Notes under the pieces: model-generated
The model's database searches: none
Seen by the model: only the letters and a program-made list of their open reading frames with translations
What the model was told of the DNA's origin: nothing
Shown: piece by piece, positions 4,993 to 64,000 of the stretch
Layout of the letters: each line of letters opens with the position of its first letter
Numbering within the stretch: the stretch's first letter is position 1
DNA from: Agrobacterium cavarae
GTDB lineage: Bacteria > Pseudomonadota > Alphaproteobacteria > Rhizobiales > Rhizobiaceae
Assembly (NCBI RefSeq): GCF_004310285.1
Contig: NZ_SISF01000022.1
Span: forward strand, 62,001-126,000
Reading direction: 5' to 3'
DNA: 64,000 nt
Program-made: the position numbers and the translations under genes

Positions 4993-5820
4993 TTAACGGA
5001 CGTCCGTCTTCTTGTTCTTGTCGGAAAGCTGCGACCACGCATTTTGCTGAGACAGCATGCCGCGCAGATAGGTAAGGTTGGCCTGCGCCTGCTGAGGAGA
5101 GAGCTCCTGCGTGGCGATCTTCTGCGCTTCCTCAAAACGTCCCTGAAGGCCTACGACCAGCGCCAGATTCTGGCGAATACGGCTATCGGCACCGGGCTGC
5201 CCGGCGGCACTGCGCAGATAGGTCTCTGCGGTGCGCGGATCGTTTTGCAGAACGTAGGACATTCCAAGATTTGAGAGGATGCTCGGATCGTTGGGTTTCA
5301 GGTCAAGCGCCTGACGATACTTCGTCCGGGCTTCGTTCGAACGGCCCAACTGATCGAGAACCGCACCTTCCGCGGAATAGAGGCGCCAATCCGGTCTATC
5401 GGGGGTTTGCGCGCGCTGGATGGTGTTGAGCGCCTGTTCCAGCTGGCCAGCGGCAGCCTGGGACTTGCCGTAGGCCGCCAGAACCTCACGGTCTGCTGGA
5501 TACGCGATCGCCACTTGCTGCATGACGGCAAGCGCCTGTGCGTTCTTACCCGTCATCATCAAGATGTTGGCGTAGTTGAGCCCGGTGTTGCGATCCTTGG
5601 GATTGCGGGCATAGGATGCGCCAACCGAGGCTTCCGCCTGGCGCAATTGATCCATGTTCATCTGATCATAGGAATGCGAGACGGCAGGAGAAATCGATCC
5701 CGTCGACATGCGGTCCGGACGGTTCGTGGAGCAGGCCGCAAGGCTAAGCGCCAGAACAGCGGCACAGGCACCCCGAAGGAGGATGCGCTTGTTGGCATGA
5801 TGTGAGGAAATCGCAATCAT
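4993..5820 (-). CDS. tadD: TPR lipoprotein TadD of the Tad pilus cluster
   Basis: A 275-aa protein with a lipoprotein signal: basic N-terminus, hydrophobic stretch and a lipobox (LSLAAC) near residues 26-31. Most of the rest is tetratricopeptide repeats (ALAVMQQVAIAYPADREVLAAYGKSQAAAG and similar units up to about residue 245). In Tad systems TadD is an outer-membrane pilotin-like assembly factor. It faces tadC tail to tail across 108 bp, so it has its own promoter in the 132-bp gap before the aminopeptidase gene. Confidence 0.85.
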   Translation of the reverse strand: MIAISSHHANKRILLRGACAAVLALSLAACSTNRPDRMSTGSISPAVSHSYDQMNMDQLRQAEASVGASYARNPKDRNTGLNYANILMMTGKNAQALAVMQQVAIAYPADREVLAAYGKSQAAAGQLEQALNTIQRAQTPDRPDWRLYSAEGAVLDQLGRSNEARTKYRQALDLKPNDPSILSNLGMSYVLQNDPRTAETYLRSAAGQPGADSRIRQNLALVVGLQGRFEEAQKIATQELSPQQAQANLTYLRGMLSQQNAWSQLSDKNKKTDVR

Positions 5821-5895
5821 GATATCGCCCCGGCCCTGTGATCGGATATTTCATCGAAGCAGCGTGCACCACGCAACTTTCGCTCCAGCAATAAT

Positions 5896-5911
5896 CTGTT
5901 AACCCTAACAG
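5896..5911. promoter_or_regulatory. Palindrome between tadD and the aminopeptidase gene
   Basis: CTGTTA-accc-TAACAG is a perfect 6-bp inverted repeat in the divergent gap 5821-5952 where both promoters must lie. No regulator can be assigned; it does not fit the spacing of a CtrA box. Confidence 0.25.
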
Positions 5912-5952
5912 AGTGTTAATTTGCTCGCCTCAGCCGTTTACGAAAGCAGACA

Positions 5953-7350
5953 ATGGTCCCTTATCAATTCATCGAGCGCGCCACTCCCTTCAGTTCGAAA
6001 CCTGGGGAAACACTTCCCGTTTTTGCGGTTACGCCCGCCCATATCGATCAAGGTGCCATTGATCCCATCGCTCTCGACTGGGCGAAGAAGGCAGGCTTTA
6101 AAGCAGAAGCGGGTGCCATCCTGTTGATTCCTTCTGCGGAAGGCGCTCTGGGCGGCGCGTTGCTTGGGCTCGGGACCAACCCTTCGGAGCTTCCTTTCAT
6201 CGCCGGAAAACTGGCGCGCGAGCTTCCCGAAGGCGACTGGCATATCGAGACGGCACCGCTCACCGTCAATCGACTGGCGCTCGGCTTTGGTCTCGGCGCC
6301 TATCGCTTCGATAAGTATCGCGCCGCCAAAAGCATAGGCCCGAAACTTCTCATTCCCCGCGATGCCGAAGATGCGGAGATCAAGCGCGTGCTGGCCGGTG
6401 TCTTCCTGGCGCGCGATCTGATCAACGTTCCTACCAATGACATGGGGCCGGACGAACTCGAGATCGCTTTTCGCAGTCTGGCCGCCCACTACAAGGCGCA
6501 GGTTTCCGTCATCACCGGCGACGATCTCTTGAAGGAGAACTTTCCTCTTGTGCATGCGGTTGGCCGCGCCAGTGCCAGCGCGCCGCGCCTGCTGGAAATG
6601 TCATGGGGCAAGAAAGGTCATCCGCGCCTGACGCTCGTCGGCAAGGGTGTTTGCTTCGACACAGGCGGGCTCGATATCAAACCCTCCTCCTCCATGGCCC
6701 TGATGAAGAAGGATATGGGCGGTGCGGCTAACGTGCTTGGTCTCGCGCTGATGATCATGGATGCACGCCTGCCCATCGATCTTCGCGTCCTCGTTCCGGC
6801 GGTTGAAAACTCCATCTCCGCCAATGCCTTCCGCCCTGGCGACATTTACAAGAGCCGCAAGGGTCTGACCGTCCAGATCGACAATACCGATGCCGAGGGT
6901 CGACTGATTCTCGCCGATGCGCTGGCCTATGCCGACGAGGACGCGCCCGACCTGATGATCGACATGGCGACACTGACGGGGGCTGCGCGCGTCGCCCTCG
7001 GACCTGACGTCCCGCCCTTCTACACGGATGATGAAGACCTTGCGCACAGCATCGCAGAGGCCAGCATGGATACTGACGATCCGCTGTGGCGGCTACCGCT
7101 TCATATGGGTTACGATAAGGACATTCGCTCCCGCGCCGCCGACCTTACAAATGCGCCGTCCGGCGGCATGGCCGGATCGATCACCGCGGCACTCTTCCTC
7201 AAGCGCTTCGTCACTTCCACGAAGAAATGGGTGCATTTCGACATTTACGGATGGTCGCTCAGCGAGCGTCCGCACACTTCGGTGGGTGGCGAAGCACAAG
7301 CGATCCGCGCTCTGTTCCACTACATCTCCCGCAGCTTTGCGAAGAAATAA
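5953..7350 (+). CDS. M17 leucyl aminopeptidase family protein
   Basis: A 465-aa cytosolic metallopeptidase that removes N-terminal residues from peptides. The C-terminal catalytic domain (about 150-460) carries the family signature NTDAEGRLILADAL and the metal ligands in GKGVCFDTGGLDIK and KKDMGG. The N-terminal domain is the more divergent regulatory part typical of alphaproteobacterial PepA/B-like enzymes. It is transcribed divergently from tadD and seems monocistronic, since the next gene is convergent. Confidence 0.9.
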   Translation: MVPYQFIERATPFSSKPGETLPVFAVTPAHIDQGAIDPIALDWAKKAGFKAEAGAILLIPSAEGALGGALLGLGTNPSELPFIAGKLARELPEGDWHIETAPLTVNRLALGFGLGAYRFDKYRAAKSIGPKLLIPRDAEDAEIKRVLAGVFLARDLINVPTNDMGPDELEIAFRSLAAHYKAQVSVITGDDLLKENFPLVHAVGRASASAPRLLEMSWGKKGHPRLTLVGKGVCFDTGGLDIKPSSSMALMKKDMGGAANVLGLALMIMDARLPIDLRVLVPAVENSISANAFRPGDIYKSRKGLTVQIDNTDAEGRLILADALAYADEDAPDLMIDMATLTGAARVALGPDVPPFYTDDEDLAHSIAEASMDTDDPLWRLPLHMGYDKDIRSRAADLTNAPSGGMAGSITAALFLKRFVTSTKKWVHFDIYGWSLSERPHTSVGGEAQAIRALFHYISRSFAKK

Positions 7351-7362
7351 GCGGACGCATTT

Positions 7363-7390
7363 TCATCCTCGCCGCTCAAGGCGAGGATGA
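7363..7390. terminator. Hairpin between the aminopeptidase gene and pncB
   Basis: TCATCCTCGCC and GGCGAGGATGA form an 11-bp perfect stem around a 6-nt loop between two convergent stop codons. There is no long T tract, so it may be an mRNA-end stabiliser or a bidirectional barrier rather than a classic intrinsic terminator. A related TCATCCTCG arm occurs near 20755. Confidence 0.45.
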
Positions 7391-7425
7391 CCGGGCCCGT
7401 GTGAGATTGCGGTTCTTGAAGACGC

Positions 7426-8730
7426 TTACACCAGGACCTTCTGGTCCTTACGGTCTTCCTGGCCGAAGAACTTCAGATAACGTTGCACCTCGTCTGCCTC
7501 GCCGGTCGCCTTTTGCGGATTGTCGGAAAGCTTGACCGCGGGGCGGCCATTGGCATCGCTCACCTTGCAGACGACCGAGATCGGCTTCAGGCCTTCGATG
7601 GTTTTCGGCGCACAACCGGCAAAATCATTGGTGAGGTTGGTGCCCCAGCCGAAGCTCATGCGCGCACGGCCTTCGAAATGCTTGTAGGTGTCGATAATAG
7701 CATCGACATCCAGTCCATCGGAGAAGATGAGAAGCTTCTTCTTCGGGTCGCGACCCATCTTCTTCCACCACTCGATGATTTTTTCACCGCCTTCGATCGG
7801 CGGCGCGCTATCCGGTCTGAAACCTGTCCAATCGGCCACCCATTCCGGCGCATTGCGCAGGAAGGCCGCCGTGCCGAAGGCATCCGGCAGGACGATCAAA
7901 AGATTGCCGCCATAGAGCCGATTCCAATCCTTCATCACCTGATAGGGTGCTGCGGCCAAGTCCTCGTCGTTCTGTGCCAGAGCGGCCACGACCATCGGCA
8001 GTTCATGCGCATTGGTGCCGACGGCTTCGAGATCGGAATCCATCGCCAGCAATACATTGCTCGTTCCGGTAAAGGCCGGGCCGATGCCTTCCTTCAGCGC
8101 TTCGACGCACCAGCGCTGCCACAGGAAGCTGTGGCGGCGGCGCGTGCCGAAATCGGAGATGCGCAGGCCAGGAAGTTCGCGCAACCGCTCCACCTTTGCC
8201 CACATCTTGGCCTTCGCACGGGCATAGAGCACGTCTAGGGTGAAATAGCCGAGCGAACGCATCGCGCTTCTCGAACGCAACTCATTGACGATGGCGAGCG
8301 CCGGTATTTCCCATAGCGTGGTATCCATCCAGCGGCCATGGAAATTCAGCTCGTACTGGCCGTCGCGCTTGAAGAGCTCATATTCGGGCAATTGATAGCT
8401 GGAGAGCCAGGAAAGAAACTCCGGCTCGAAAATCTGCGAGCGTCCGTAGAAGGTGTTACCGGCAAGCCAGATGCTTTCCTTCTTCGTCAGTCGAAGACTG
8501 CGCGCATGGTCGAGCTGCTCGCGCAGTTCGACCTCGTCGATTTCCTCTGCGAGCCGAACAGTCTTGGTCCGGTTGATCAGAGAGAAAGTCGCATTGACGT
8601 CCGGATAGAGCTTCCAGATCATCTGCAACATCAACAGCTTGTAGAAATCCGTGTCGATCAGGCTGCGGATAATGGGATCAAGCTTCCAGGTGTGGTTGTG
8701 AACACGGGTCGCTATGTCTGTCTTCGTCAT
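7426..8730 (-). CDS. pncB: Nicotinate phosphoribosyltransferase
   Basis: Converts nicotinate and PRPP, with ATP, to nicotinate mononucleotide in NAD salvage. The 434-aa form starting MTKTDIATR fits the family length; a longer in-frame start at 8796 would add 22 unrelated residues. Recognisable segments are [13 protein letters not shown] near the N-terminus, [18 protein letters not shown] and [10 protein letters not shown]. It ends facing the aminopeptidase gene. Confidence 0.94.
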
Positions 8731-52401: not shown

Positions 52402-53616
52402 TCAGTCACAGAGATTGAAATGGGCGGGTTCGCCGTTCCAAGCACTGAACAAGTTGCGCCCGTCCCAGTAACTCACCTGACCGTGGTTGACCGACCTCTT
52501 CGCGCGAAACACATGATCCGCTGTAAGGCGCTCGAGGCATTTCAAACCAATGTCAGGCACTTCGAAGCCCACCTGCCCATATCCGTCATGGGAGATATTT
52601 CGCGCAGGAATGGCCATTAGCAATGCTGCGTGCTTCGTTTCCTTCAGTACGACCGCGAATTGGTTCATGATAACTGAATAGCCAGTATGGGCATGAACTA
52701 TACGGGGGTCTTTCGACGAAAGAGTCTGAAGCAAATTGGACACCGCTGAGGGAGCGACGAGCTTTGATTTATCACGAATGATCCCGTCGCTTGCATTCTG
52801 ACACCAATCCCGCACATCGTTTGACGTGGCAAGGGTCATCGGAATACGCGTTCGGCCCGCGAATTTGTGTGCTGAGGGAAGGTAGTTAGATGTTGTCACG
52901 AAAATACTCTTTTGAGCATTCTCGACATCTGCCACACCATGGAGTGCCGCCACAGCAGACATATCTATTTTGTTTTTCGGGGAGTATTTTTTCGCCTGAA
53001 CAAGCGTCAGTATGTCTCCGAGAGGATCGCGTTGAAGTACGCGAACGTCAATGCCCCCATCATTTGAGCCGGGGCCGAGCTCACACGTAAATCCTTGGCT
53101 TTGAAAGATTCTGAATAATAAAATTTCGAACTCGCGCCATGTGAGCCGATGCAAATCGTCTGGGCGCTTGGCGAAGTGCGAATACAGTTCCTCATGAACA
53201 TCAGCTATGTCCTGCTGCACGAGCCCGCACACCCATTGCCAGTTGGCATAGTCGAGAAGCGGTTGGAACAGTGGGCTCTCGTCCTGAGGATAAATATGAG
53301 CACTTGCCCCGTCGTTCCGCTCGTACCAGAAGCCGTGCTGCTCGAGTAGCTCGACGAACTCGATATCGAGACCGGCGAAATCACCATCGAGTGCGCGACC
53401 CAGGTCGCCATCGAAATACAGGATAGTTGCAACAGGGGTTGTCCCCGGTTCTCCATCAATTCGTTTGGCATAGGACTGAAAACCGCAATCGAACCACAGC
53501 TCGTGTCTCGTCGCCCATTCTCGAATGGAATTTTGCAGTGACGTGACTACTGCTTCCAGTTCAGCATCGGAAGTCCTGGCTTTCACCGTATCTGCCAATT
53601 CGTGGTCAGGCTTCAT
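52402..53616 (-). CDS. Mrr-type restriction endonuclease domain protein
   Basis: A 404-aa protein. Residues about 158-285 form an Mrr_cat-like PD-(D/E)XK nuclease: TWREFEILLFRIFQSQGF with Glu164, then SNDGGID with Asp190 and LVQAKK (207-210), the D-x(n)-QxK core. The first 150 residues (LWFDCGFQSYAKRIDG ...) and the last 115 are not recognised. It lies 53 bp below the FRG gene on the same strand and is probably the last gene of the defence operon. Whether it acts on foreign or modified DNA is unknown. Confidence 0.82.
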   Translation of the reverse strand: MKPDHELADTVKARTSDAELEAVVTSLQNSIREWATRHELWFDCGFQSYAKRIDGEPGTTPVATILYFDGDLGRALDGDFAGLDIEFVELLEQHGFWYERNDGASAHIYPQDESPLFQPLLDYANWQWVCGLVQQDIADVHEELYSHFAKRPDDLHRLTWREFEILLFRIFQSQGFTCELGPGSNDGGIDVRVLQRDPLGDILTLVQAKKYSPKNKIDMSAVAALHGVADVENAQKSIFVTTSNYLPSAHKFAGRTRIPMTLATSNDVRDWCQNASDGIIRDKSKLVAPSAVSNLLQTLSSKDPRIVHAHTGYSVIMNQFAVVLKETKHAALLMAIPARNISHDGYGQVGFEVPDIGLKCLERLTADHVFRAKRSVNHGQVSYWDGRNLFSAWNGEPAHFNLCD

Positions 53617-53669
53617 CGTTCACCTTCACAGAACAAAAAGGACGGCGCATGTAGTCGACTAAGTCAGCG

Positions 53670-54957
53670 CTACATAGTGCCACGGGGAAGCTCATAACCA
53701 TCTCGGAGATGAACGGTGGTCTGATCGATGCTTGGGTAAACCGTCGTCGCATTTATGTTAATGCTGTCGAGTTGGGCAAGAATGTTGGGCTTATTTGTTA
53801 TCGCAATTCTCGCAATCTCGATGCCGTCGTTTCCCGTTTCCGGTAGAACGGCTTCGTGACCGAACAGAAGAAAGGCGCCCGATTGGGACTTAATTCTACT
53901 GTTGGTTCTTTTCGCCTTCACGCAAAGGATCGAGCCGAGATCGTCAGGAGCAATGTTTCCCTCAAAATAGCTTTTCTCGGCCTTAATATGATGAAGAAGC
54001 TTCTTGGCAACTTCCTGCTCGTTGAATTCCGTCCGATCAAGACTGAGGTTGATCTCACTTTTTTGAGCATGCGTAAGATTGGAGAGGTTCGCGAGGCAAC
54101 TCACCGTGTCCGAGTCGTAGTATTTGATTTTATCGGCCTTGATCCTGAATATGATAACTTCTCCGCTCGTCGCCATCATCTCTTCGCTACCGTAGCAGGC
54201 AAAGAAAAGGGCAACGAGCGGATTTCCGGAAATATCAAGCAGGCGCGTCGGTAGGCCATAATGCTGCATCCGAACCAGTCTATCGAAGCAATACTGGTCA
54301 CGTTGAAATTCATCGTAGTGCGCGATCAGCAGTTCTTTGCACAGACGATCTTCATTGGGCATGAACTTCCATGCACCTTCCGGCCACTTTCTGAGGAGTG
54401 AGGGCGTGAGTTCAAAGGCCGCATTCTCGTGCCCACGGTAGAAAATTTCAGCGTCGTGCTTGTCGAACCGGCCAAACAGGAAACCGAGATAACTTTCGAC
54501 GCTGTTCGCTTCGCCGATGATGTTTTTCTCCCGCGCTGGCGGCTCCATGGCGCCATCGCCGGCTTGAGCAGGCATGTGAGCGCCAATAACGTCCTTGAAC
54601 TGAGGAAATAGTTCTGCCAGCCTTTCAAGTACGGTATGCGCGTCCCCGGCCCTCACGGCCCAATGTGTACGATGCAGCTCGAACTGATCCGCACCAAATA
54701 CGTCTCGAGCCGAGTCAAGTTCCTTGAAGTCCAGTTCGCCAAAATCGATCAGGGCGTCGAAACGAAACCGGACCTCCTTTTTGTCAACGGTGATTTGCTC
54801 GACGTTTCCAAATTTGACGATCATCGAAGCATGACCATTTGACCTGGAAATTTCAGTGCATAAAAACGATGGCAGCTGCTGTAGGAATTCGACAGCAGTT
54901 GAACCAATCCCTTCGAGTCGTTTCTCGATGTCGACAGGCGTATATTCGAACATACGG
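53670..54957 (-). pseudogene. FRG-domain gene, 3' part (cut off by IS21-family element)
   Basis: 427 codons remain, starting at an ATG (54953) that lies inside the target duplication, so MFEYTPVDIEKRLEG is not the original N-terminus. The FRG domain covers about 165-290: FYRGHENAAFELTPSLLRKW, then RMQHYGLPTRLLDISGNPLV (about 228-247) and LFFACYG. FRG proteins of unknown activity recur in phage-defence loci. With the 30 codons at 57457-57546 the intact protein was 457 aa. The fragment has lost its ribosome-binding site; some expression from a start inside the element cannot be excluded. Confidence 0.85.
54951..54957. repeat. Left target-site duplication of the IS21-family element
   Basis: CATACGG directly before the left end, repeated at 57454-57460 directly after the right end. 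A 7-bp duplication is within the range known for IS21 elements. Confidence 0.92.
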
Positions 54958-55012
54958 TGTTGATTTGCACTGAGAGCTGACCCGGGATTTGCGCCGAGAA
55001 TTGACCCGCCCT

Positions 55013-55825
55013 TTAGATATCTGTCGGGTGGGGTGTGGTGGTCAATGCCTTGTTTTTCTCCTTCCTGGTTTTGGGTTCGTGGGCCGAGCTGTTCTTGAAG
55101 CGGAAGCTGTCGTTTCCGGTTTCGAGAATGTGACAATGGTGGGTCAGGCGGTCCAAGAGCGCCGTCGTCATCTTGGCGTCGCCGAAGACGCTGGCCCATT
55201 CACTGAAGCTCAGATTGGTGGTGATGATCACGCTGGTCCGCTCATAAAGCTTGCTGAGCAGATGGAAGAGCAGCGCGCCGCCTGATGCGCTGAATGGCAG
55301 GTAGCCGAGCTCGTCGAGAATGACGAGATCGGAATGTAAAAGCCGATTGGCGATCTGGCCGGCGCGGTTTTGCGCCTTCTCCTGCTCGAGCGCATTGACC
55401 AGTTCGACAGTGGAGAAGAAGCGAACACGCTTGTGATGGTGCTCGATGGCCTGCACGCCGATCGCGGTGGCGATGTGGGTTTTGCCCGTGCCGGGACCGC
55501 CGATGAGGACGATGTTGTTGGCGTCTTCGAGAAAGTCGCAGCGATGGAGCTGCCGCACCAACGCCTCATTGACCTCGCTGCTTGTGAAGTCGAAGCCACT
55601 GAGATCGCGATAGGCGGGAAAGCGCGCGGTCTTGAGTTGGTAGGCGGTCGATCTGACTTCGCGCTCTGCGGTCTCGGCCTTGAGGAGCTGCGACAGGATC
55701 GGAAGGGCCGCCTCGAAGGCAGGCGATCCCTGTTCGGTCAATTCGCCGACCGCCTGGGCCATGCCATGCATCTTCAACTGCCTGAGCATGATGACGATCG
55801 CGCCGCTTGCCGGGTTATGACGCAT
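55013..55825 (-). CDS. istB: IS21-family helper ATPase IstB
   Basis: A 270-aa AAA+ ATPase that helps IstA choose and bend target DNA. Walker A is GGPGTGKTH (about 109-117), Walker [13 protein letters not shown] (about 167-178) and a sensor segment [10 protein letters not shown] follows. It overlaps the end of istA by 11 bases. The C-terminal tail lies within 60 bp of the left end. Confidence 0.95.
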
Positions 55826-57350
55826 GGCGCACCTCCGACTTTCTCAAGGCGTCGTAGCGTTCAACATTGGCCTTGGGCTCATTGGTGAGCGTCAGCGCCT
55901 GCGGCGCGCTAATCGTCGGCGGCGTAAACGATTTGCCGTCAACGAGACGATGGAGAAGATTGAGGATATGGGTCTTGGTTGGCGCGCCGGACTTCAGCGC
56001 CATGTCGACCGCCGACAGCACAGCCTGTTCGTCATGTTGCAGAACAAGCGCCAGGATGTCGACCATCTCGCGGTCGCCGCCCGGTTTCTTGATCAGATGC
56101 TGCTGGAGCGTTCGGAAAGCCTCCGGCAATTCGGCGAAGGGAGCTCCGTTGCGCAGCGCGCCCGGTTTGCGCTGGACGACCGCAAGATAGTGCCGCCAGT
56201 CATAGACTGTCTGACCGGGGCGGTCGTGGGAGCGGTCGATGATCCGCCGATGTTCGCAGACGACCTGACCCTCCGCGGCGACAACGACGCGATCCGGATA
56301 GACACGCAGGCTCACCGGCCTGTTGGCGAAGGAAGCGGGGACGCTGTAGCGATTGCGTTCGAGATGCACGAGGCAGGTCGGCGAGACGCGCTTGGTATAT
56401 TCGACAAAGCCGTCGAAGGATCGGGAAACCGGCATCAAGGCGCGGGCTTCCTCGGCCAAGATATCGGCGATCGAACCGTGCATCTTTCCATGCGGCGTCT
56501 CCGCCCAGAAAGCCCTGCAACGCATCTCCAGCCATTCATTCAGAGCCTCCACGGATGGAAAGCGCGGCGTCGGCTGGAAGAAGCGATGACGGGCGTCCTG
56601 GACGTTCTTCTCAACCTGTCCCTTCTCCCAGCCTGACGCTGGATTGCAGAACTCGGGCTCGAAGAGATAGTGGCTCGCCATGGCCTGGAAGCGCATGTTG
56701 ACGTCGCGCTCTTTGCCTCGACCGATCTTGTCGATGGCCGTGCGCATGTTGTCGTAGATGCCGCGGCGAGGAACACCGCCGAATACGCGGAAGGCATGAT
56801 TGTGGGCGTCGAACAGCATCTCATGGGTTTGCAGGAGATACGCCCGGACAATGAATGCCCTGGAGTAGCTCAGCTTGGTGTGCGCCACCTGCAGCTTTGT
56901 TCGCTCATTGCCGATGATCGCCCAGTCCTCCGACCAGTCGAACTGGAAAACTTCACCGGGCTCGAACGCCAGGGGTACGAATGTTCCGCGCCCCGTCGTC
57001 TGGCGCTCTCTTTGCCAATCCGCTCTCCACTCCCGCGCAAAGGCCGCAACCCGGCAATAGGAGCCCTTATAGCCGAGGCTCATCAGATCAGCATGAAGCT
57101 GCTTCAGTGTCCGCTTCTGTTTGCGCGGCTTATGGGCTTCGGATTTGAGCCAGGCCGACAGCCGATCTGCAAACGGGTCGAGCTTACTCGGTCGGTCCGG
57201 AACCTTGAACTTGGGCACAACGCCGTCAGACCGAAGATACTTGCGGATCGTGTTCCGGGAGAGGCCAGTGCGGCGCGATATGTCCCGGATCGAGAACTTG
57301 TCGCGGAAATGCCAGCGTCGAATAACGCTCAATAACTCCATGTCGATCAC
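55815..57350 (-). CDS. istA: IS21-family transposase IstA
   Basis: A 511-aa DDE transposase. An N-terminal helix-turn-helix ([21 protein letters not shown], about 19-39) binds the ends. The catalytic triad is read as Asp138 (FQFDWSED), Asp200 (GIYDNMRTA) and Glu247 (GQVEKNV). A second Met at residue 4 is an alternative start. The gene is intact. Confidence 0.95.
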
Positions 57351-57453
57351 TCCAGAGCCCTCGCTTCCATGACGCGAGGGTCGGTTTAAACATGGGTCAA
57401 TTCTCAGTGATAATATCCCGCGATCCCGGGTCAGCTCTCAGTGCAAATCAACA

Positions 57454-57546
57454 CATACGGCCTCGGCTCATCGAGAATTCCGTGCTGCCGTCTTCTTCCA
57501 AAAGCTCCCAATTGCCATAGGAAATATAGTTGAAGTTTTCAGGCAC
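57454..57546 (-). pseudogene. FRG-domain gene, 5' fragment upstream of the IS
   Basis: On the minus strand an AGGAG (57555-57559) stands 8 bases before a GTG at 57546. That frame, MPENFNYISYGNWELL then EEDGSTEFSMSRGR, runs 30 codons to the IS junction and joins in frame, through the duplicated CATACGG, with the FRG fragment on the far side. The GTG is 24 nt after the stop of the ABC ATPase gene. This shows that the element interrupted a coding frame and not just a promoter. Confidence 0.85.
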
Positions 57547-57570
57547 GGGGGATTCTCCTGATTTACCTGC

Positions 57571-59505
57571 TCAACGAAGCCACGATATGGGTACAAGCTT
57601 TATGCCATCGCGCCAACGTTCAACGGTAGCATCCCGGAACCAGTCTAGTAGTAGATCGACGTGGTCAGTCACGATAACTTGCATTTGGGACGACTGCCCA
57701 AGACAGTAATCAGACAGGAGACGATAGAGCCTTGCGACCGCGGCTTGGTCTTCATCCTCTCCTCCACTGATCTCGCCGACATCTCTATCCGGCGGGTAGT
57801 GAGCCTGAGAGGGCTGATCTAGCATCAAGAATGCCGGCACCGGACGGCGGCGAGCACGGAAGAGCTTGTGAAGAGCGAGGTGCGCCGCGACATGATAGCC
57901 GACCCAATTCTCTCCGCTTCCGATTTGTGGCAAGGACAGCGGTCCATCAACCGTATCTGCCACAACAGTCAGGTTTTTCCGATCCAGCCGCAGGCTATTC
58001 TCACCATGCTCGAGCTGCAGTTTCCCCGCGTACTCCGTGAGATCGCGGCCCACGAGGCTCAAGGCTGTTGTGAGCCTCTCCTCCATAGCTTCTTGATCAA
58101 GCGCACGCTCCAATTCGGTGACCTCAGCACGCACGCGCGCGATCTGGAGACGCAACCCATCGTCACTGGATAATGCTCTTGCGTTTTCGAGATAATATCC
58201 AATCCGCCCCGCCACGCGTGCCTGCTCTGTAAATTGATCCTGCTCAACACGAAGCCGCTCGTTGTCAGCAATTCGCGTCGTGATATCTCGCTGAACTGCC
58301 GCCAAATCTGCCTCAAGAGTAGTACGTTTCGTCTCAAGTTCTGCAATTTGCCCTTGCAGCCGGGGATTGTCGCGACGGACGGCATTTAGTTGTCGATCTA
58401 ACCCCGCCAGAGATTTCCGAATTTCATTCACTGACGGGACTGGAATCGACAAGTGACTGTCGCACAAAGGACAAACCTCGTGCCCGCCATCACCTACATC
58501 GACCAGTCCTATCGAAGCCAATCTAGCCTGCTGTTCACGAGCTTCGGATTCGAAATCAGTGGCTTCTCGTGTTAGTCGCTGAAGGTCCTTGATTTCGTCT
58601 CGAAGTTCTTGAAGTTCTGTCCTTAGTCGTCGACGGCGCTCTTCAAGATCAGTCAAATCCGCCGCTGGATCGTCGTTTTGAGCGTAGGTAAGCGTGCGCG
58701 GAGCCGCAGCTTGGGTCAGTAGCTTCCTTACATCGTCGACCGTGTCTGCGGTAGCATCAAGCGTTAACAAGCCGACGCGTTTAGCCTCCTGCAATAGGCT
58801 GCGTGCCATTCCAGAGGCCTCGTCCGCCAATGCTTTTGCGTCCGTAAACTCGCGCTCCAAACTTCTTAGCCGCCGACGGGCATCCTCGTAACGCTTCTGC
58901 TTGAGGTAGTGATCCTCGCCCATGGCGCCAACGAAGTATGGAAGAGTGTCCTTGATCGCTTGAGGAATCCGTTCCTCACCTTGCCGATGAAATAGCAATC
59001 TTCGGTTGGCAATCTCGTCCTGTCCCTGGAAGCTGAAGAAGATCGCTTGACTGGCGGAAGCTTCTAACGGTCGCCGGGTCGCTCCTGGCTCTGGGACATA
59101 TAGGTTTTCAGCTACACCCAAAATTGCCGAGAATCGCGATCTTAGGCCGTCAGCCGTTGAATTCTTAATAAATGCGCCCGGATTGTCCGGGAAATCATCA
59201 ACGTTCCGCTGGAAGTAGATTTCATCGCTTGTTTTAACAGCGGGACCTGGATTTTTCCTCGCAACAAGTATGCCCTCACCGCTATTATCGAACAAAACAG
59301 CGAACCACGACACACCGCGCCGAATCTCTCCTTCGGCAACGGTGCATTCCGTTCGCCCCCAGCAGTAGTCAACTATGTCTAGTAGCGCCGACTTCCCAGT
59401 TTTCGACGCTCCTGTAACAACATTTAAAACACCGAGATTAAAGCGAATATCCCTGCGTTCACCATCTTTCGAATAGATCGCGATGGCTCGGATTTGTAGA
59501 CTCAT
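57571..59505 (-). CDS. ABC-3C system ATPase (DUF3732-like, SMC/Rad50-type)
   Basis: A 644-aa protein starting MSLQIRAIAIYSKDG. Walker A is GASKTGKS (about 32-39) in a DUF3732-type N-terminus (LNVVTGASKTGKSALLDIVDYCWG). Two coiled-coil arms (about 200-330 and 360-480) flank a CPLC motif at 345-348, like a Rad50 zinc hook. The C-terminal half-domain has a signature-like IGSGENW (528-534), Walker B FLMLDQPSQ (559-567) and H-loop TDH (613-615). The ORF is open to 59583, but this ATG overlaps the middle-component stop by 4 bases. It is the sensor/motor candidate of the system. Confidence 0.9.
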   Translation of the reverse strand: MSLQIRAIAIYSKDGERRDIRFNLGVLNVVTGASKTGKSALLDIVDYCWGRTECTVAEGEIRRGVSWFAVLFDNSGEGILVARKNPGPAVKTSDEIYFQRNVDDFPDNPGAFIKNSTADGLRSRFSAILGVAENLYVPEPGATRRPLEASASQAIFFSFQGQDEIANRRLLFHRQGEERIPQAIKDTLPYFVGAMGEDHYLKQKRYEDARRRLRSLEREFTDAKALADEASGMARSLLQEAKRVGLLTLDATADTVDDVRKLLTQAAAPRTLTYAQNDDPAADLTDLEERRRRLRTELQELRDEIKDLQRLTREATDFESEAREQQARLASIGLVDVGDGGHEVCPLCDSHLSIPVPSVNEIRKSLAGLDRQLNAVRRDNPRLQGQIAELETKRTTLEADLAAVQRDITTRIADNERLRVEQDQFTEQARVAGRIGYYLENARALSSDDGLRLQIARVRAEVTELERALDQEAMEERLTTALSLVGRDLTEYAGKLQLEHGENSLRLDRKNLTVVADTVDGPLSLPQIGSGENWVGYHVAAHLALHKLFRARRRPVPAFLMLDQPSQAHYPPDRDVGEISGGEDEDQAAVARLYRLLSDYCLGQSSQMQVIVTDHVDLLLDWFRDATVERWRDGIKLVPISWLR

Positions 59506-60038
59506 ACCCTTATTCCCATCGTCTGCAGGACCACGCCTGTCGTCTGTAGAACCGCGCCTGACTGTGATTGATGCGCAAACCAACGACCAAGGAGGCCGGC
59601 GGTACGGCGAATTTCGTCTACTTCGTCAGTGCTAACAGCGGGCTTCGCCGTAAGACTTAGTGGTTTTTCGCCAAGGCTGACGCCATCACTATCCACTCTA
59701 ATGGCACCGAGTTGAGACAAAAAAAGCAGCGCTTCGCGACTAACTGGTCGCAAATGGAGCACGCGATCGGGTACCGTACTGAGAACATCTGCGTTCTCCC
59801 CTGCCCACGATGCAAAGGCTGTATTGGCCTTTCGAGGCAGCGCTCGTCGGGTTCCAGGGTGAAGAGCAAGCGGCAGTATAAGGAAGGTCAAAGCGAATGG
59901 CAGTGACGTGCGACTTTGCTTGCAATAGCCGTTCAATGTTCGAGCAATCAACTCGCCGCAAAACGCCGGATTGAAATGGGCAGCCTCCTCCAGAGGACGC
60001 TCACGCCAGGGTCGCGTGAAATGCCGGTGTTCAGCCAT
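59502..60038 (-). CDS. ABC-3C system middle component
   Basis: A 178-aa protein, MAEHRHFTRPWRERPLEEAAHFNPAFCGELI, with a winged-helix-like body and no catalytic motif. Small proteins with the pattern N-P-A-F between effector and ATPase genes are the middle component of three-component ABC systems. It starts after GGAGGAAAG, overlapping the effector stop by 8 bases, and ends overlapping the ATPase start by 4. The C-terminus carries an internal near-repeat (AVLQTTG VVLQTMG). Confidence 0.82.
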   Translation of the reverse strand: MAEHRHFTRPWRERPLEEAAHFNPAFCGELIARTLNGYCKQSRTSLPFALTFLILPLALHPGTRRALPRKANTAFASWAGENADVLSTVPDRVLHLRPVSREALLFLSQLGAIRVDSDGVSLGEKPLSLTAKPAVSTDEVDEIRRTAGLLGRWFAHQSQSGAVLQTTGVVLQTMGIRV

Positions 60039-61260
60039 CCGAGCTTTCCTCCCGGCACAGGCTCAAAAAATCCCTATGCCATCCGATACGAAGATCATTC
60101 GCGAGGATGTGGTACGATCCAACGTTCAAAAATTTCGCAGTTATAGACCGAAATGGCAGCCTGGCTTCAGTTTCAACCCAGTAATAGATTTCTTGTGCGT
60201 CTTGTTTGAGCTTCGAGTCGTTGCTTTCACTCCCAGGATGAGAATCACACATGGCGACGAAGCGCGGCTCCCATTCTTCCACAAGCCGTTGCTCAAACTT
60301 TTCTAGTTCTTCATCAAGAACCACATGTTCTCTGGTCCACTTTGATCGCTGAACGAAGGCACGATAGTAGTCACGTTTCGCAAAGCGCAACCGATTTCCG
60401 CCCAATCCGATGACATGAAGCTGTTTGACAAAGCGAAAGCCATCATATTCGGCGATTTCGGTATCGCTGGGTTCAGCATGCTCAAAATCGGCGACAAGTG
60501 CATCGCGCTTGAGAAGCTCCCTTATGTCATCAAGCTTCGCTTCGAGCGCGCCCACCGGAATTGTATCCGACGGGTTCGCCATGAGCACTTCACATATGCG
60601 CGGCCACCACCAACCCTCAAGCATTTCGCGGGCAAGCGCAACTTTCCCCGCAGGAGCAACAAGACGAAGGGCATGTTCAAGTTCTACGCCGAGATCTGTC
60701 AAGAGAGGTTGCCGGTCAACTACTTCGACGGCACTCAAAAGCGAAGATCGCATAGCATCCGATAGCGCCAGAAAGGCGGTGAATGCTGATCTCAAAGATT
60801 TGTTTTCAGAGGTCTCCGCAACGGCAGTCAGTATTTCTTTCGCCAATTTCGGATTACGCTTCGTCCCGGCCTCATAGGCTTGCCGTGGACGAAGAAGCGC
60901 GGCCGCGGAGCCCAGAGGCGCCTCCCCGGTCGTCACAAGGACAAGCTTTGCCCTAGACGGCAGCGAAGGATCGTCCGCCGATGCCTCGGCCCATACTCGA
61001 AGGGTCTTCCAGATATCAGGGCTGGCGTCTGATAGGCTTGCCACACGATCAATGTGATGCTTCGTCTGCAGGAGCTCAAAAGGAGATCCGTCCTTCTCAA
61101 AAGACACATCATCCAATCGCTCAACGGAAACCTCGACCTCGACCCCACTGTTCACGTGAGGAATGCATAAGAACAAGGCTAAACGGGCCTGATAAAGGTA
61201 CCCAGCCGCCGAGGGAGCTGCACCAAACCGATTTTCTTCCCTGCCCAATCCCCCTCCCAT
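60031..61260 (-). CDS. ABC-3C system effector with N-terminal PD-(D/E)XK-type nuclease domain
   Basis: A 409-aa protein. Residues about 10-140 resemble the DUF4297/Cap4-type nuclease: AAGYLYQARLALFLCIP, VEVSVERLDDVSFEKDG (Asp50/51), FELLQTKHH with QxK at 65-67, then DIWKTLRVW. The rest (about 200-409) is helical, with EWEPRFVAMCDSHPG and EIYYWVETEARLPF near the end, probably the C-terminal module that couples to the ATPase. The ORF is open to 61455 and starts at 61308 or 61455 exist, but homology-like sequence begins just after 61260. The weak Shine-Dalgarno makes the start uncertain. Confidence 0.82.
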   Translation of the reverse strand: MGGGLGREENRFGAAPSAAGYLYQARLALFLCIPHVNSGVEVEVSVERLDDVSFEKDGSPFELLQTKHHIDRVASLSDASPDIWKTLRVWAEASADDPSLPSRAKLVLVTTGEAPLGSAAALLRPRQAYEAGTKRNPKLAKEILTAVAETSENKSLRSAFTAFLALSDAMRSSLLSAVEVVDRQPLLTDLGVELEHALRLVAPAGKVALAREMLEGWWWPRICEVLMANPSDTIPVGALEAKLDDIRELLKRDALVADFEHAEPSDTEIAEYDGFRFVKQLHVIGLGGNRLRFAKRDYYRAFVQRSKWTREHVVLDEELEKFEQRLVEEWEPRFVAMCDSHPGSESNDSKLKQDAQEIYYWVETEARLPFRSITAKFLNVGSYHILANDLRIGWHRDFLSLCREESSDG

Positions 61261-61686
61261 TTTTCTTTTTGAAGCCAGTCTCCGATTCGGAATCGAGCCT
61301 ACTATCATCAACGTGTGGAGCAGATTCTCATCGATCCGCGTTGATATCGCTACGACCTCCCTATGGTTTATCAAGGGCATGGCAAAGTCAACGTAAGATG
61401 GCAGTAAACTAAGGCAATTCACAACCAGCAAGAGGCATTTAGGATCCAAGACCATCTATAGTGAAATGCCATGAAAACCGTACTCTCAAGAGGTGAGGAT
61501 AATAGGTCATCCGCCGACAGAGATCGCGACACATCGAAGAATTGCTGGGGCGCAGTGCATCTGTGGGAAGTCGGTCGACATGAAGGCAAATACTCGAATT
61601 CCGCCCAGGCGAAGCGTAGTCGGAGTACCCCCTCATGATCGGCCCCAGAGGGGCATGTCTGACGACGAGATCGCCCGATTTTATTT
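61261..61686. other. 426-bp gap between the helicase and the ABC-3C genes
   Basis: No gene can be supported. Several short overlapping frames exist: an N-terminal extension of the effector to 61455, a 65-codon plus-strand frame at 61493-61690 ending MSDDEIARFYF, and a 65-codon minus-strand frame at 61439-61636. None has a good Shine-Dalgarno or a recognisable domain. The promoter of the ABC-3C operon should lie here. Confidence 0.4.
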
Positions 61687-64000
61687 TTAAGCGTCGGCGC
61701 GTGGCCAGCGCATTTTTCCGCCGCCGACACGCTTGGCTTTAACAAGCGTTGTTCCACCGGCCAGCCGTCCCGAAAAAAGGCTAGGCTTCGAGACAACCGG
61801 CTCCTTTTTGAACGGTGCCACGGGCTGATAATCTGGTGTCGTCAGCCAGGTTCGGCCGCCAGCCCCATCGATGTCGACACGGTAGAGGCCAGCGGGTGGC
61901 GCTTCTTCGCGCGGCACATCAAGCAGGCGCTCATAGTTGGAGACAGACCATTTCTGAGCACCGCCGCTTAGTGCTTCGGTGCGGAAGCGCGCCCACAGTG
62001 CTGCCGTCTCGGGCGTAGGCCAGTTACCCGCATCGGTAAGAGCCGTGATCTCGTTGGATTCCAGCCACTCGCGCATTTCAGCTGGCGTAAGGAAGGACGG
62101 GGCGGTGCTCCCGACTACGGCCATCGCAGCACGGCGTGACGGTAAGCCAGCACGGATCAAGAGTGACATCATGAACTGCGGCACGCCTGTCTCGAGTGCC
62201 GCTGCAGCGCCTCCCGCGACTGTTTCTGGCGACCAGCCGAGTGTCACGCGACGGGTACGGATTGCTTCGAGTGCCCAAACAAGGCGGTATATGAAAGCGT
62301 CCTCAATCGCTCGCATATTGTTGGGGCCGATGACTGTAATTTCGATCCCAGAGACCCACTGCTTGAGGATGGCCTTCCAATTGCCCGGCAGCGGCTTGTC
62401 CGGAACGAAGGGGCGAATGGCGAAAAGCCGTTCACCAAGTACAGCAAGTGCGTCGGCGAGTTTATCCGTATCGCCTGAAATTGCCGCCGCGTCTGCGCGG
62501 TCCACCTCTTTGGCAAGTTCGTCAGCCATTGCATCGACTGACAGACCGGCTTCAAGACCGACGCCCATGGCGAAATGACCGATGCGGGCCTTAGGCGTCG
62601 TGACTGACCAGATCAAATTAGCTCGTGCCTTGAAGACTTTGCGATGCTCAGCCTCAATCTCCTTCTCCTCGCGGTCGATCTGCCGTGCCCACAGCGATCC
62701 CTTGAGAGCCTCGTCGATCAGCCGAGGTAGGTCGGCGCGATCGGCGTCGAGCGCTTCGATAAGGCCGAAGACCGTTGCGTCGAGACGCTCGACAAGTTCG
62801 GATAGTGGTTCTTCCTCGATATCCTCTTCCTCGTCGTCAGCACTCTCGGCTTCATCATCGTCCTCGTCTAAGTCTTCACCCTCTTCCGACGCTTCTGCAA
62901 GCTTGGCCGCAAGTGCGGCCTCCTCGGCGGGAGATTTCCAAGCCTCTCGAGCATTGGCGAGATATTCCCAAGCGTCGTCGCGGTCGAGTACCCCCTCCCT
63001 CGCTAAACGCTTAAGAATTTCCGCAACGATCTGGATTAGTCCGCTCTTGAGGGTTCGAGCTTTCGAATCGCTGACGAGGCCCCGCCAATCTCGATTGCGC
63101 CAATCGAGACTGTCAAACATGACATGAATAATTAGCCCCTCAACATCGACGAAAGCACGACCAGCGCGACCGGCGACGTTGGCGAATTCCTCGCCGCTGA
63201 TCCGCTTACCAGACCGATATAATGCGGGCACAAGGAGGATGGCGGCGTTAAGGTTGAGTCCTTGAGAGAGCGTCGGCGAAGCGACGATCACCTTGAGCAC
63301 ACCCTCAGATAACAGGATCTCCAACTCTCGCAGGAAAGGACTAGGCAGACGACCGTGATGAATAGCAACTCCAGCTTTCAGGCTAGCGACCGCCGGATGA
63401 TCTGCGCCCAGCCATTCCTTGCCAACCTCTAGGGCGCGCGCGACCGAGATTTCGTCCTCAAGAAGGGAACCAAGGTAGCCACGCTTGACAAGATTGACGA
63501 CCTGCTTGCCGTAACTTTCGACCCAGTTTGCCTGCGTCGAAAAGATCAAGGTGCGCTTGCCCTGGGCCGCGAACTCCCACGCGGCGAACAACGTTAGCTG
63601 CGAGTTCTTACGAGGATAAGGGAGTTTTTCTCGACCACGCGCCGGAGTTTCGACAACGAAATTGTCTACGAAGGGGATATTGCGGGTGCGGTCAAGAGTA
63701 AGCCGGGCAGCGGGCTCATCCCATTCTAGCTTACCATAGCGCTGACGCGTCGGGCGCCAGTTGGACCGGACAGGCTCGCCTGGTTCATCGGAACGAATCC
63801 AGGCAGTCAAATCGTCTAGTTCGTCGCCGCTCGGAAGAATCGCCGAGAGGCAGACGATCCGCCGTGTGGCTGCATCGGCCCGGCGCAGTAGGCGTTGGAC
63901 GAGTGTTTCGTATCGGATTTCGCGTTCGCTCGGCCCGATCATGTGGCCTTCGTCGAGAACTATCAGGCCAACGTTGTCAATCAAGCTCGGGTCGCTGCGC
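61687..64000 (-). CDS. Large DExH-box (Ski2-like) helicase, N-terminus beyond window
   Basis: At least 770 codons, open through the right edge (the frame continues upstream as RSDPSLIDNVG), so motif I lies outside. Visible are motif II LDEGH, motif III LSAIL, and a RecA2 domain with TLIFSTQANW, a motif-V-like ASPTLSQGLNLNAA and a motif VI EFANVAGRAGRAF. An acidic linker (EDLDEDDDEAESADDEEEDIEEEP) follows, then about 350 residues of unknown function. It may belong to the same island system or to another defence system such as a Hachiman-type pair; its upstream partner is not visible. Confidence 0.85.
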   Translation of the reverse strand, partial: RSDPSLIDNVGLIVLDEGHMIGPSEREIRYETLVQRLLRRADAATRRIVCLSAILPSGDELDDLTAWIRSDEPGEPVRSNWRPTRQRYGKLEWDEPAARLTLDRTRNIPFVDNFVVETPARGREKLPYPRKNSQLTLFAAWEFAAQGKRTLIFSTQANWVESYGKQVVNLVKRGYLGSLLEDEISVARALEVGKEWLGADHPAVASLKAGVAIHHGRLPSPFLRELEILLSEGVLKVIVASPTLSQGLNLNAAILLVPALYRSGKRISGEEFANVAGRAGRAFVDVEGLIIHVMFDSLDWRNRDWRGLVSDSKARTLKSGLIQIVAEILKRLAREGVLDRDDAWEYLANAREAWKSPAEEAALAAKLAEASEEGEDLDEDDDEAESADDEEEDIEEEPLSELVERLDATVFGLIEALDADRADLPRLIDEALKGSLWARQIDREEKEIEAEHRKVFKARANLIWSVTTPKARIGHFAMGVGLEAGLSVDAMADELAKEVDRADAAAISGDTDKLADALAVLGERLFAIRPFVPDKPLPGNWKAILKQWVSGIEITVIGPNNMRAIEDAFIYRLVWALEAIRTRRVTLGWSPETVAGGAAAALETGVPQFMMSLLIRAGLPSRRAAMAVVGSTAPSFLTPAEMREWLESNEITALTDAGNWPTPETAALWARFRTEALSGGAQKWSVSNYERLLDVPREEAPPAGLYRVDIDGAGGRTWLTTPDYQPVAPFKKEPVVSKPSLFSGRLAGGTTLVKAKRVGGGKMRWPRADA

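Follow-up and report, generated by a model that had tools for sequence, protein, structure and literature searches.

The 64,000-nucleotide (nt) window of Agrobacterium cavarae analysed here (assembly GCF_004310285.1, contig NZ_SISF01000022.1, positions 62,001-126,000; window coordinates are used unless a contig is named) contained a gene for a FRG-domain protein that was split after about 30 codons by an insertion sequence (IS) of the IS21 family, and the original start of the gene was recoverable. The breakage of a candidate defence gene by an IS is a known and ordinary kind of event. The gene pieces, the element and the mechanically called open reading frame (ORF) were located as follows.

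57461..57546, minus strand: 5' piece of the FRG gene, which begins with GTG at 57546 and comprises codons 1-28 plus two bases of codon 29; a Shine-Dalgarno sequence is present and homologues retain this stretch
57454..57460, no strand: right copy of the target-site duplication, CATACGG
54958..57453, minus strand: complete IS21-family element of 2496 bp with 31-bp perfect inverted ends
55815..57350, minus strand: istA transposase, 511 aa, intact (Pfam rve and Mu-transpos_C_2; NCBIfam transpos_IS21, 331.9 bits against a cut-off of 160)
55013..55825, minus strand: istB helper ATPase, 270 aa, intact (Pfam IstB_IS21, 2.3e-79; NCBIfam IS21_help_AAA, 285.9 bits against a cut-off of 200)
54951..54957, no strand: left copy of the target-site duplication, CATACGG, which contains the surviving ATG (54953-54951, minus strand)
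53670..54953, minus strand: 3' piece of the FRG gene, read from the surviving ATG, which retains the entire FRG domain and the larger part of the N-terminal module (Pfam FRG PF08867, 5e-18; PADLOC PDC-S15, 3.8e-100)
53670..55199, minus strand: mechanical ORF of 509 aa, in which 80 IS codons and the junction precede the FRG piece; the frame of the IS part is not conserved

Elements of the IS21 family have TGT...ACA inverted ends with further internal end repeats, and generate a target-site duplication of 4-8 bp. The element in the window harbored an istA with an rve core and an istB, both intact, as well as TGT...ACA ends and the 7-bp CATACGG duplication. Its inverted repeats (54957-54988 and 57423-57454) were 32 nt long and 100% complementary, with 31 nt lying in the element and one in the duplications, and an internal end-repeat pair of 21 nt was 81% complementary. 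The perfect 31-bp ends and the CATACGG duplication that a first-pass annotation had read from the letters alone were thus confirmed. A single full copy was present in the A. cavarae assembly (5.02 Mb, 34 contigs), where two of the three matches were the element's own ends. Some match to the element was found in 70 of 201 related genomes, the A. cavarae genome included, among both genus and family relatives. The closest full-length relatives, in these genomes and on rhizobial plasmids, were 82-83% identical, and the single plasmid match of at least 99% identity corresponded to a 40-base IS end.

The flanks of 14 related elements (within L056-L073) were also inspected. One of them, L059, had a clear duplication (GTACAGAAG), and no duplication was visible by eye in the others, which suggests rearranged or old copies. 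Another IS21 relative, 82.1% identical (L028; plasmid NZ_CP086612.1 of Shinella zoogloeoides ATCC 19623, 5706-8496), started within the end of a 105-aa annotation for a "three component ABC system middle component"; an IS21-type element may therefore have broken an ABC-three-component (ABC-3C) gene in another genome.

Removal of the element together with one CATACGG copy yielded a minus-strand frame of 457 codons from the GTG at 57546 without a stop, as the first-pass annotation had proposed. When an intact homologue from a genome of the same family (L030, 67% identical) was used as a query, it matched both FRG pieces in the A. cavarae genome: residues 21-454 matched C5:115679-116980, and residues 1-33 matched C5:119445-119546 with 61% identity. 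Both matches extended a few bases into the IS, and the second one, on the 5' piece, contained one stop; in the interrupted gene the frame of the 5' piece continues across the right duplication and meets a stop shortly after entering the IS. Because both pieces are homologous to the intact L030 protein, chance was excluded as the source of the joined frame. The excision suggested earlier was also consistent with DNA alignments to six homologues. The one-copy join aligned without a gap at the junction in all six, each with one 3-nt gap further upstream, and in the L030 comparison a further gap of 1 nt occurred roughly 110 bases away from the junction. The two-copy join left extra junction bases against all six; these formed a clean 7-nt block in four, and in the other two they were merged with the neighbouring 3-nt gap (10 nt in one, 9+1 in the other). 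Neither a stop nor a frameshift was detected in the 428 codons past the junction. The ATG of the fragment did fall within the duplicated bases, in the left copy, as had been noted. The codon of the preceding arginine, a residue invariant in all 39 distinct N-terminal modules described below, is kept in this copy, but it lies upstream of the ATG.

The stretch that was cut off from the gene is conserved in relatives. Start sites were surveyed at 81 homologous loci, in which an R-x-[FL]-E motif at the split point served as the criterion for the N-terminal module. The motif was present at 45 loci. In all 45 the frame upstream of it was open for 24 codons or more, with a start codon at a distance of 23-34 codons. 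These 45 included near-identical copies, and 39 were distinct in the module; N6 was conserved in 34, W13 in 28 and R29 in all of these 39. The nine close and 30 distant modules aligned as profiles over 144 columns with an hhalign probability of 99.7. Among the 36 loci that lacked the motif, 31 were frames of 233-340 aa, and five were frames of 436-570 aa with a different N-terminal part.

The closest FRG relatives were 67% identical in the 201 related genomes (16 with a match, the A. cavarae genome included), 62.9% identical among plasmids, and 64% identical in a genome contig collection. FRG relatives were also encoded at 43 distinct viral-contig loci (L111-L153), of which 34 possessed the N-terminal module. 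FRG genes are carried as cargo by viral contigs and temperate phages, including the P2-like phage P2_2H1 (L154). In coliphages PhiR11_1 (L155) and PhiR11_1_star (L186), 40 bases separate the end of IS2 transposase genes from the downstream start of a long-class FRG gene, and the presence of an IS beside or within FRG genes may be recurrent.

The split gene is located in a defence neighbourhood. Downstream of it, across a 53-nt gap, lies the following gene on the same strand.

52402..53616, minus strand: Mrr-type restriction endonuclease gene, 404 aa (Pfam Mrr_cat, 2.1e-27)

Upstream on the same strand, HamA (300 aa) and a helicase of HamB type (1170 aa) are followed by LmuA-like (CTD7), MC3 and LmuB-like (DUF3732) ABC-3C genes. 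The region from 57571 to 64000, which continues on C5 to 128089, constitutes a defence island with Hachiman-type HamA/HamB and Lamassu-like ABC-3C genes.

On this evidence, a candidate anti-phage single-gene effector of the FRG type (PADLOC PDC-S15) most likely lost its function when a complete IS21-family element recently inserted into it. The data show the element with its duplication, the frame and start of the original gene, and the conservation of the lost stretch in relatives. As a consequence of the insertion, the start codon with its ribosome-binding site and the two leading predicted strands of the N-terminal module would be cut off from the remainder of the gene. The Shine-Dalgarno energy at the original GTG was -7.4 kcal/mol, stronger than the 5% point of random positions (-6.3; median, -1.8), whereas the surviving ATG scored +0.7 and had no ribosome-binding site match. 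Since this ATG lacks a ribosome-binding site, little or no protein would be expected from it, and any product of the fragment would be without part of the first domain. The intact protein may have combined a sensor, the N-terminal module, with an ADP-ribosyltransferase (ART)-like effector that would act on NAD+ or a nucleotide upon infection, although this is less certain; with similar uncertainty, its loss could cost the cell one layer of defence and remove a potentially self-harming enzyme. The insertion is probably recent, because the ends and the duplication are perfect, istA and istB are intact, and the 428 codons past the junction have acquired neither a stop nor a frameshift.

Several observations weigh against this interpretation. 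Genes that were taken as functional also had weak Shine-Dalgarno scores (Mrr, -3.9; LmuB-like ATG, -4.2), and the ATG equivalent to M30 scored moderately in some homologues (L022, -5.3; L111, -5.0), so that an internal start in relatives is conceivable. In a scan of 53400-57800, no terminator was matched on the minus strand between istB and the FRG fragment, and transcripts may run through. An IS-free site in the same species or in a near-identical genome was not found, and the insertion is judged recent from its ends, its duplication and the intact frames. Moreover, the fragment retains a complete FRG domain, and among the 36 module-less loci 31 have frames of just 233-340 aa; the fragment could therefore be active if it were produced. 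We infer loss of function, and read-through into the fragment and Mrr is possible.

Such read-through forms the core of an alternative that we consider unlikely, in which istAB transcripts extend into the FRG piece and on to Mrr, and an effector with a damaged sensor is produced, either as an IS-FRG fusion or from the surviving ATG. istA and istB are co-directional with FRG and Mrr, the lack of a terminator match would permit it, and module-less FRG frames do exist. Upstream of the surviving ATG, moreover, the reading frame continues without a stop for 80 codons into the IS. The equivalent frame was compared in 13 of the 14 related elements (L072, with a match incomplete at one end, was omitted); it had 17-27 open codons in ten, and 80, 94 and 294 in the remaining three. 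As the frame is short in 10 of the 13, an IS-encoded N-terminal extension with a function was rejected as a conserved feature. In VcaM4I, an EVE-HNH protein, the nuclease became toxic once both sensor and linker were removed, and not after removal of the sensor alone, according to PMC7897488. Against rewiring, no minus-strand promoter was matched in 53400-57800 (two matches on the plus strand; 1.7 expected on both strands), a weak negative given that the scan was limited to the sigma-70 consensus. The candidate starts were weak as well, with -1.9 at 55199 and -3.0 at 55136 in the IS frame in addition to the score of the surviving ATG, and a deregulated effector acting on NAD+ would be expected to harm the cell. 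The first-pass annotation had left it open whether the system was inactivated or rewired recently; the insertion does look recent from its perfect ends and duplication, whereas rewiring was not supported, with no minus-strand promoter match in the region scanned and no Shine-Dalgarno match at the surviving ATG.

In a further alternative, FRG, Mrr and ABC-3C form one costly multi-gene system and the insertion was selected as an off-switch. The arrangement in the window is compatible with this, since the FRG start is 24 nt past the LmuB-like stop, Mrr is 53 nt past the FRG stop, and all are on one strand. In relatives, however, these genes come apart. The ABC-3C genes of S. zoogloeoides Teo12 match at 78% of bases (LmuB, 93% identical), but similarity to the window extends no further than base 57571, at the LmuB stop, and the gene that comes next has a putAbiC domain and is not FRG; tblastn detected no FRG in L107, L109 or L110. 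A plasmid of Sphingomonas morindae carries an Mrr that is 80% identical, without FRG in the 9.3 kb inspected, and G041 (Mrr 52% identical) is outside the 16 genomes with an FRG match. Close FRG relatives adjoin Drt2 (Rhizobium beringeri) or AAA and S8-protease genes (a Pleomorphomonas metagenome-assembled genome), and more distant ones are found in P2-like and other coliphages beside phage genes. The order FRG-Mrr-ABC-3C was seen in none of the loci inspected. On these loci, a single operon of the three was rejected, and a selected off-switch is highly improbable. FRG was linked to neither Mrr nor ABC-3C in the relatives inspected, so the mention of a system in the first-pass annotation was not supported; FRG appears to be a separate module and a single-gene candidate hit, and at most a polar effect of the insertion on Mrr is possible. 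Least credible of all, and close to negligible, is the view that FRG naturally begins at MFEYTP and that the 30 codons before it form a small frame with no relation to the gene. The methionine at this position is kept in close homologues, some with a moderate Shine-Dalgarno score. However, the upstream piece is 61% identical to the intact homologue, every one of the 45 module-bearing homologues has the upstream extension, with N6, W13 and R29 conserved as described above, and none of these 45, among the 81 loci examined, starts at the split position. Homologues that start at MFEYTP without any such N-terminal stretch had been named beforehand as the observation that would overturn the reconstruction, and the 81 loci did not provide it. 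An inactivating IS21 insertion into a single-gene candidate stays the preferred interpretation.

The FRG assignment of the gene is strong, with 66.2 bits for PF08867 (Pfam curated cut-off, 25) and a PADLOC PDC-S15 match of 3.8e-100 over residues 223-503 of the 509-aa frame. All 39 rows of alignment A4 matched FRG in a Pfam scan (E up to 10), and EVE, YTH or ASCH was matched by Pfam in none of the 39 rows. PDC-S-type defence candidates are still uncharacterized according to PMC12482510, and FRG is assigned to the ART superfamily as a possible NADase in PMC9503650. An AlphaFold2 model was obtained for the intact homologue L022 from 39 rows with a mean predicted local distance difference test (pLDDT) score of 85.3; an earlier model from seven rows was poor (pLDDT 43.5) and was not used. 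The model predicts strands at residues 4-10 and 22-26, both of which fall in the lost stretch.

Structures were compared with VIA-align against 998 chains, for which the tool cautions that a Z below 8 may reflect a common arrangement only. Residues 1-150 of the model best matched the YTH protein Mmi1 (Z 7.7, 118 residues aligned, 3.3 Å), below this caution level, followed by PH1033 (6.8), VcaM4I (6.1), MJECL36 (6.0) and also DrmAB (5.5), all with Z below 8. Matches 1-36 of the best 50 listed were YTH chains, PH1033, MJECL36 or VcaM4I, and many of them repeat a few YTH proteins. PH1033 and MJECL36 are of EVE type. Residues 194-423 matched TreTu (5.9), TreX (5.8) and EcPltA (5.1), again all below 8; TreTu, TreX and PltA are ART toxins. 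These matches are suggestive of a PUA-like reader at the N terminus of the predicted structure, and the FRG part may resemble ADP-ribosyltransferases. Foldseek searches of PDB and BFVD with the model yielded nothing at E <= 0.001; among the 50 BFVD matches listed, two weak ones carried the names activating signal cointegrator and ASCH domain-containing protein. A PDB sequence search with the seven-row profile returned no match up to E 1. Moreover, hhalign of the 39 N-terminal modules against 29 EVE sequences, all from one bacterial order, gave a probability of 0.2, compared with 0.4 for reversed modules as a negative control, whereas the positive controls reached 100 (EVE halves) and 99.7 (close against distant modules). 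At the level of sequence profiles, this argues against a close relationship to EVE, and this null result against its controls slightly lowers the odds of a modified-base sensor.

Long-class FRG proteins could nonetheless be infection sensors in which a PUA-superfamily reader of modified bases activates an ART-like FRG effector acting on NAD+, in a modification-dependent abortive response parallel to the EVE-HNH restriction enzymes. We regard this reading as tentative and, on balance, doubtful. It would cover a long class that spans phages, viral contigs, plasmids and chromosomes, and the IS21 insertion, which trims the first strands of the putative reader and leaves the effector domain whole, would then represent a natural sensor-damage allele. 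A literature search, with subscription papers mostly outside its scope, found no FRG protein joined to an EVE, YTH or PUA sensor, so novelty is unproven.

For annotation, the consequence is that automatic pipelines can mistake the FRG remnant for an intact gene or an IS-FRG chimera. The first-pass annotation had anticipated a call from MFEYTP; the mechanical ORF begins instead inside the IS, at 55199, and is 509 aa long. The wider value lies in the two-part architecture of PDC-S15 as an uncharacterised defence candidate. If the N-terminal module reads modified bases, both the trigger and the output of PDC-S15 become testable, the former with phages that carry modified bases and the latter as a loss of NAD+. 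The lead of a possible modified-base reader coupled to an ART-like effector merits a bench test.

Compared with known systems, the element shares with the IS21 family the two intact overlapping genes, the TGT...ACA ends, the internal end repeats and the 7-bp target duplication, and differs from it in no notable respect. Genes of Lamassu and ABC-three-component systems (DUF3732, MC3, CTD7) are the immediate upstream neighbours of the split FRG gene, but FRG is not a conserved operon member in the relatives inspected. With PDC-S15, the split gene has strong FRG and PDC-S15 model matches in common, and homologues occur on plasmids, viral contigs and phages, with one beside Drt2. On the other hand, the copy in the window is split by an IS and, as a long-class member, has roughly 165 additional residues in an N-terminal module, and the best model stretches start no earlier than residue 221 in the 509-aa frame. 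Relative to the modification-dependent restriction enzymes of EVE-HNH and YTH-McrB type (VcaM4I and others; PMC7897488), the N-terminal module had no profile match to EVE and no EVE, YTH or ASCH Pfam family. The predicted likeness is one of architecture, a possible N-terminal PUA-superfamily sensor followed by an effector, which is a nuclease in those proteins and would be an ART-like FRG domain here.

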